Source of the DNA: Chthonomonas calidirosea T49
GTDB lineage: Bacteria; Armatimonadota; Chthonomonadetes; Chthonomonadales; Chthonomonadaceae
DNA length: 64,000 bases
Assembly: GCF_000427095.1 (NCBI RefSeq)
Contig: NC_021487.1
Span: forward strand, 248,001 to 312,000
Direction of reading: 5' to 3'
Below are positions 9,668 to 10,278 of this stretch, one piece after another. How positions within the stretch are numbered: the stretch's first letter is position 1; each line of letters opens with the position of its first letter. The notes beneath the pieces are model-generated. The model saw nothing but the letters and a program-made list of their open reading frames with translations. It was not told the origin of the DNA and did no database searches. The position numbers were made by a program, and so were the translations under genes.

Positions 9668-9705
9668 CAAAATAAAAATGGCGGTCGGTTCCTCCCGGCC
9701 GCCAT
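9668..9705 (-). terminator. Intrinsic terminator inside the leader of the aldehyde dehydrogenase-crtI operon
   Basis: Stem ATGGCGG-t-CGG / CCG-g-CCGCCAT (9678-9688, 9695-9705) with loop ttcctc; the minus strand continues with TTTTTATTTT. It lies between the only strong promoter and the operon, so read-through must be controlled or another promoter must exist. Confidence 0.75.
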
Positions 9706-9827
9706 CAAAAGGGGCGATAATGGGGTTTTCCGTTCTCTACGAGCACCTTTGCGAAAGATGCGGGGGCTCGCATCTTTGCAAGTTCGCGATGCTTCGTTTG
9801 AGGTGGAAAACGTCTTTTAATAAAGAC
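9668..9827 (-). ncRNA. Structured leader RNA or small RNA ahead of the aldehyde dehydrogenase-crtI operon
   Basis: About 160 nt, read on the minus strand from a consensus promoter at 9834-9862. Three stem-loops follow in order: a 7-bp hairpin at the very 5' end (plus CGTCTTT-TAAT-AAAGACG, 9811-9828); a 13-bp stem with one bulge (9749-9781); and an 11-bp terminator stem with one mismatch (9678-9705) followed on the minus strand by TTTTTATTTT (9669-9678). The operon's first ATG is 60 nt beyond the U tract. It is either a free sRNA or an attenuator/riboswitch-like leader. I do not recognise the sequence as a known riboswitch class. No convincing reading frame covers it. Confidence 0.6.
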
Positions 9828-9939: not shown

Positions 9940-9956
9940 TTGGCACGCAAATTGCA
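9940..9956 (+). promoter_or_regulatory. Sigma-54 (RpoN) type promoter of the cold-shock gene
   Basis: TTGGCACG-CAAA-TTGCA: the -24 element TGGCAC (9941-9946) and -12 element TTGCA (9952-9956) are both consensus, with the required 10 nt between the GG and GC pairs. Predicted start near 9967, 84 nt before the csp ATG. No sigma-70 promoter of similar quality is seen for this gene. Confidence 0.65.
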
Positions 9957-10050
9957 GTAAGGATTCTGGTGCACTCTTTGTGAACGTGAGTTGTTGACGC
10001 TCCGGGAGTCCGCACTGAAAGTTGTGCAGGTCTTAGGAGTACCAGACAAT

Positions 10051-10278
10051 ATGCTTTTGGGCAAAGTAAAGTGGTTTAACAACGCTAAGGGCTATGGGTT
10101 TATCGTTGCCGAAGACGGAGTAGATGTTTTCGTGCACTACTCGGTGATTCAGATGGAAGGGTTCAGAACGTTACGAGAGGGACAACTCGTACGTTACGAG
10201 GCAACGGAAGGGCCGAAAGGCCGACTCGCCACCCGTGTAATCCCCAGAGTTGAGGATGATGAACCGAGCCAAGCCTAG
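10051..10278 (+). CDS. Cold shock domain protein (CspA family)
   Basis: 75 residues forming one cold-shock domain. [16 protein letters not shown] holds RNP1 (KGYGFI) and [10 protein letters not shown] holds RNP2; the rest follows the five-strand OB pattern, with a short acidic tail EDDEPSQA. CspA proteins bind single-stranded RNA and melt secondary structure. The longest frame starts 20 codons earlier at a TTG, but ATG 10051 starts the domain directly and has AGGAGT 10 nt upstream. Expected to have an 84-nt leader from the sigma-54-type promoter at 9940-9956. Its last 4 bases overlap the convergent DUF5658 gene. Confidence 0.93.

Follow-up and report, generated by a model that had tools for sequence, protein, structure and literature searches.

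Chthonomonas calidirosea T49 appears to transcribe one of its cold-shock genes from a functional sigma-54 promoter, as a dedicated paralog that belongs to a small and probably enhancer-independent regulon for matrix production. We give this reading, which is drawn from sequence analysis, a probability of about 0.8. As a conserved sequence the promoter is real, and it is almost surely functional. What is new is the combination of a csp gene as a core member of the regulon, a single activator devoid of a DNA-binding domain, and a csp paralog that is absent alongside rpoN. A literature search for sigma-54 or RpoN in Armatimonadetes/Armatimonadota found no paper, and a search for exosortase in Armatimonadetes returned a single paper, apparently on LuxI/LuxR.

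A near-perfect sigma-54 promoter precedes csp

The window, i.e. the whole 64-kb stretch of DNA that was analysed, contains a single exact match to TGGCACGN4TTGCA, for which 0.008 would be expected from base composition. This 16-mer, TGGCACGCAAATTGCA (TGGCACG-CAAA-TTGCA), places the -24 GG at 9942-9943 and the -12 GC at 9954-9955, and lies 94 nt upstream of the csp ATG at 10051, on the same strand. The claim of the initial annotation that a near-perfect -24/-12 element with exact spacing and correct orientation stands before csp is thus confirmed. From the positions of the GG and GC elements, transcription is predicted to start at about 9967, leaving a leader of about 84 nt. The features of the region are as follows.

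9941-9956 (+): sigma-54 (-24/-12) promoter TGGCACGCAAATTGCA, exact in consensus and spacing
9967 (+): predicted transcription start, 12 nt past the -12 C, from the -24/-12 geometry
9967-10050 (+): predicted csp leader, 84 nt, from the predicted start
10035-10039 (+): Shine-Dalgarno sequence AGGAG, read directly
10051-10278 (+): csp gene, paralog A, coding for a 75-aa cold-shock-domain protein of the VDVFVHYS type (PF00313, tree clade)
9862-9834 (-): divergent sigma-70-like promoter TTGACA-17-TAGAAT, 11 of 12 matches, from the promoter scan
9690-9827 (-): putative divergent non-coding RNA with a G+C-rich hairpin and a T-run at its end, read by eye and outside the sigma-54 unit

The csp product contains a cold-shock domain (PF00313, E = 7.5e-25), and none of the NCBIfam csp subfamilies scored it over cut-off. 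Our scan for sigma-70-like promoters found none on the sense strand between the sigma-54 site and the csp ATG. The predicted leader had no match in Rfam, and an alignment of 18 leaders showed little conservation beyond the ribosome-binding site, so that conservation of the leader sequence was dismissed.

The second csp gene of the genome (C1:134528, L017) is preceded by TTGACA-17-TATACT, matching at 11 of 12 positions, and by no sigma-54 site. The ordinary arrangement is therefore kept at this locus, and the sigma-54-associated csp looks like a specialised copy.

A back-to-back sigma-70-like promoter does exist, as had been described, with about 78 bp separating it from the sigma-54 site. The suggestion that the two promoters influence each other found no support: the divergent RNA has no Rfam match, and a search of 40 relatives did not recover it in any of them, whereas the sigma-54 site is widespread among relatives. 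Any mutual influence would therefore be peculiar to this species.

The csp site is conserved in one paralog clade

Searches of 61 genomes yielded 126 csp matches in 57 of them. We scored 111 of these, drawn from 56 genomes of the phylum, in their correct orientation and left out the 15 weakest rows. Sixteen of the 111 copies carry a sense site scoring at least 14 within 350 nt upstream, at -110 to -192, compared with none of the 111 on the antisense strand (best score 13.8). The threshold of 14 was chosen after the scores had been seen; raising it to 15 leaves 14 of 111. A chance match is very unlikely since the site is kept in relatives, and we rejected it on this conservation together with the antisense control.

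Within the order, represented by 31 genomes and 58 scored copies, the site occurs in 12 of the 17 members of one csp clade, paralog A, and in none of the 41 other copies. Support for this clade is 95/91 in a tree that is built on 64 columns and weak inside. Paralog A of the rpoN-bearing G020 and G025 has a weaker site (score 11.4) at a shared position, and no site was found within 350 nt of paralog A in G003 and G008, both rpoN-positive, or in the rpoN-less G007. Nor did the csp of G007 show a sigma-70-like replacement promoter. Outside the order, the csp site is present in G055 and in three genomes of family f6 (G033, G047 and G060). A pattern scan of genome contigs for the site followed by csp at 95-125 nt, which covers one leader-length range and is no census, returned four stretches, one of them in a Calditrichota MAG.

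Seven exact sites define a small putative regulon

The 3,437,861-bp genome (one contig) contains seven exact TGGCACGN4TTGCA sites, compared with 0.45 expected from base composition and two matches for the reversed control pattern. Most precede envelope- or EPS-related genes. Further sites, for which the initial annotation had proposed a genome scan, do exist. Allowing up to one mismatch gave 27 matches against 21 for the control, which is mostly background; the real regulon therefore comprises little beyond the exact sites and one decayed copy.

Window 9941 (+): before csp
C1:1253948: before a gene for a small secreted protein whose C terminus has TPELS, then a hydrophobic stretch and arginines
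C1:1501118: before an exosortase/exopolysaccharide gene run
C1:2227245 (+; L004 1501-1690): before a terminator-ended stretch, then an M16-type peptidase (named by eye)
C1:3116462: before an EPS sugar transferase
C1:3202014: before a second TPEL-CTERM protein (TPELG-CTERM)
C1:3208269: before the receiver-PilZ gene that immediately follows the activator gene
C1:3202864: decayed site with one mismatch, TGACACGGAAATTGCA

All seven sites share the core TGGCACG(G/C)(A/T)AATTGCA, positions that normally vary agreeing as well, and an A three bases 3' of the site is invariant in all seven. The run behind C1:1501118 codes, in order, for a Wzz/tyrosine-kinase protein, a polysaccharide export protein, a glycosyltransferase, an exosortase (PF09721, E = 1e-55; TIGR02602, 136 bits against a cut-off of 105.6), EpsI (45.2 bits, cut-off 42.8) and an ABC-2-type exporter, the last named by eye. 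'Bacterial exterior' has been proposed as the theme of sigma-54 control by Francke et al. (PMC3162934). The regulon fits this theme, with csp as its odd member.

The site at C1:2227245 carries the same 19-mer as csp, TGGCACGCAAATTGCAGTA, and the stretch behind it ends in a strong terminator-like hairpin. This stretch could encode a small RNA driven by sigma-54, or else contain a short reading frame. Among the 41 genomes searched, the putative small RNA was found in its own genome only, and its single weak Rfam match was regarded as due to chance.

Proteins with a TPELG or TPELS motif, a hydrophobic stretch and basic residues (L006/L179 6331-6948, L002/L182) match no NCBIfam or Pfam model, and the genome has an exosortase; their tail is possibly an undescribed exosortase sorting tag. 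Adjoining the intact TPELG-CTERM copy is what appears to be a decayed tandem copy (L179 7199-7880, minus strand) with the one-mismatch site at C1:3202864.

One RpoN and one activator that lacks a helix-turn-helix

Sigma-54 control of csp had been said to call for RpoN and an AAA+ activator, and the genome has both. A single rpoN (PF04552, E = 7e-28) codes for a protein that keeps the activator-interacting, core-binding and DNA-binding regions; its CBD scores E = 9e-47 and its AID 22.2 bits, just under the Pfam cut-off of 23.8. It contains ARRTVVKYRE, which we take to be a recognisable RpoN box. PF00158 found one convincing sigma-54 activator (E = 1.6e-72), the next-best matches, at E = 1e-7 and weaker, being taken as other AAA proteins.

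The activator consists of a receiver, an AAA+ domain and a lid, and ends about 40 residues after the start of WPGN; no C-terminal helix-turn-helix was found. Its L1 loop reads NAFTGA instead of the usual GAFTGA (L179 13379-14614, minus strand). Most short-tailed homologues (L070-L091) also have NAFTGA, with SAFTGA in G027 and GAFTGA in G054 and G041. Twenty-five of 30 homologues fetched were readable, and 21 of these share the short tail; that of G042 is slightly longer (56 residues), those of G050 and G059 look HTH-like by eye and that of G037 is long and of another kind. Where the genome carries a csp site, the activator is short-tailed in every readable case (14 of 14). No csp sigma-54 site was seen in the genomes with a long or HTH-like tail (G037/L095; G050 and G059/L092, L097). 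The activator search drew a blank in G009 (73% complete) and G019 (64% complete).

A kinase gene adjoins the activator gene, and its product combines GAF and PAS domains with HisKA and HATPase. Kinase gene, activator gene, sigma-54 site and receiver gene follow one another in this order in G000, G006, G010, G018 and G001, and the receiver and PilZ domains were confirmed in four of these genomes (G000, G010, G018 and G001).

Since the activator ends without a helix-turn-helix, like FlgR and CtcC, enhancers are probably unneeded. FlgR of Helicobacter pylori works without binding DNA (PMC3930126), and CtcC of Chlamydia trachomatis is described as having no DNA-binding domain (PMC7482065).

Paralog A co-occurs with rpoN and the activator

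Of the 17 rpoN-positive genomes of the order, 15 have paralog A, against 2 of the 14 rpoN-negative ones (31 genomes, P = 5×10−5, Fisher's exact test). Removing the six genomes below 90% completeness leaves 12 of 14 against 1 of 11 (25 genomes, P = 2×10−4). These genomes are related, so both P values are too small and overstate independence. One rpoN-negative exception, G009, is 73% complete and yet has the csp site; the search did not find paralog A in the rpoN-positive G013 and G028. The activator follows rpoN still more closely (16 of 17 against 0 of 14). The co-occurrence pattern is present in two families, f1 and f3.

Across the 61 genomes, TGGCACGN4TTGCA occurs 160 times in the 41 with rpoN (reversed pattern, 19) and 13 times in the 20 without it (reversed pattern, 6).

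Twelve of the order's 31 genomes, from two families, lack all three of rpoN, the sole activator and one csp paralog.

Alternative explanations

That the site resembles a sigma-54 promoter by chance, csp being read from an unrecognised promoter of the sigma-70 family, is highly improbable. The use of the csp promoter is deduced from sequence, ECF promoters fall outside the coverage of our scan, and C. calidirosea has many ECF sigma factors, as stated in PMC4959169, all of which leaves room for such a promoter; against it stand csp sites at the same position in 15 other genomes, the empty antisense control (0 of 111) and the co-variation of paralog A with rpoN. We also regard it as very unlikely that the site is a true sigma-54 binding site at which polymerase is held in a closed complex, with repression or interference as the outcome and csp transcribed from another promoter. 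Sigma-54 closed complexes are stable without an activator, which makes such a role conceivable. It has a precedent of sorts in E. coli, where cspA and cspH bind sigma-54 in ChIP and yet are transcribed by sigma-70 in vitro, as reported in PMC4551910. Those E. coli sites have no clear -24/-12 consensus, whereas the site found here is near perfect, and no other promoter-like sequence was found nearby on the sense strand.

A third possibility leaves the csp promoter under sigma-54 and bears on enhancer independence, the activator reaching an upstream element through an adaptor or a DNA-binding partner. An excess of shared words upstream of the seven sites would suit such an element: in an 8-mer test, ten words were common to all seven upstream regions, against 0-4 in dinucleotide shuffles. 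The words are A/T-rich tracts, however, and little follows the AAA lid in the activator, which has no helix-turn-helix, so we consider this arrangement unlikely.

A candidate circuit for surface-coat production

A functional sigma-54 promoter before csp would complete a candidate circuit made of one kinase, one activator that lacks a DNA-binding domain, one sigma-54 and about seven promoters. The kinase beside the activator gene, with its GAF, PAS and HisKA domains, would phosphorylate the only sigma-54 activator of the genome, which would probably reach sigma-54 RNA polymerase at any promoter directly from solution. An activator with no DNA-binding domain of its own implies that all promoters of the regulon (the seven exact ones and the decayed one) would fire together. 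The set so expressed would comprise the exosortase/EPS operon, the EPS sugar transferase, the TPEL-CTERM surface proteins, the receiver-PilZ gene, csp and possibly a small RNA. Csp would then be an RNA chaperone made while the exopolysaccharide coat is built, and not chiefly for responding to cold; the other paralog, with its sigma-70-like promoter, would cover the housekeeping functions. The csp gene would thus be assigned to surface-coat production instead of to cold, and the co-variation of the paralog with rpoN makes the role of Csp in the sigma-54 regulon directly testable. Several observations weigh against this reading: the paralog-A copies of rpoN-positive genomes with a weak site or none, the two rpoN-positive genomes in which paralog A was not found, the words shared upstream of the seven sites, and the NAFTGA loop of the activator.

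More speculatively, Csp could serve as a chaperone or antiterminator for the long exopolysaccharide and exosortase transcripts, and perhaps for the co-induced sigma-54 small RNA, and have nothing to do with cold shock. We find this version doubtful; if correct, it would explain the tendency of the gene, its promoter, the activator and rpoN to be absent jointly.

Relation to known systems

FlgS/FlgR of H. pylori and CtcB/CtcC of C. trachomatis share with the present system a receiver-AAA+ activator without a helix-turn-helix, a partner kinase and a small sigma-54 regulon. They differ in that the regulon found here comprises EPS/exosortase, PilZ and csp genes and not flagellar or developmental ones, in the NAFTGA version of the L1 loop, and in the score of the activator, which falls below the NCBIfam FlgR cut-off (337 against 750 bits).

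The PEP-CTERM/EpsH system with PrsK/PrsR and a sigma-54 box (Haft et al. 2006, PMC1569441) resembles the present one in its exosortase, EpsI, Wzz/tyrosine kinase and export protein, and in its proteins with C-terminal tags, all located behind sigma-54 sites. Membership of the PrsR and PrsK families was rejected on score, the activator reaching 374.6 of 502.6 bits (PrsR, TIGR02915) and the kinase 99 of 300 (PrsK). Unlike in that system, the activator here has no helix-turn-helix and the TPELG/TPELS tags fit no NCBIfam model; the PEP-CTERM DNA motifs are said in that paper to be common to Proteobacteria only.

An in silico survey of sigma-54 regulons lists COG1278 cold-shock proteins among the genes enriched in predicted sigma-54 promoters (PMC12316311). 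Its main text has no mention of Armatimonad-, and the passages at hand contain no analysis of a csp activator or of co-loss. Links between sigma-54 and cold shock have also been drawn for SigL of Bacillus subtilis, indirectly via BkdR and YplP, and for cspA and cspH of E. coli (PMC4551910). Those links are indirect or involve no clear -24/-12 site, whereas in C. calidirosea a near-perfect site stands directly before csp.
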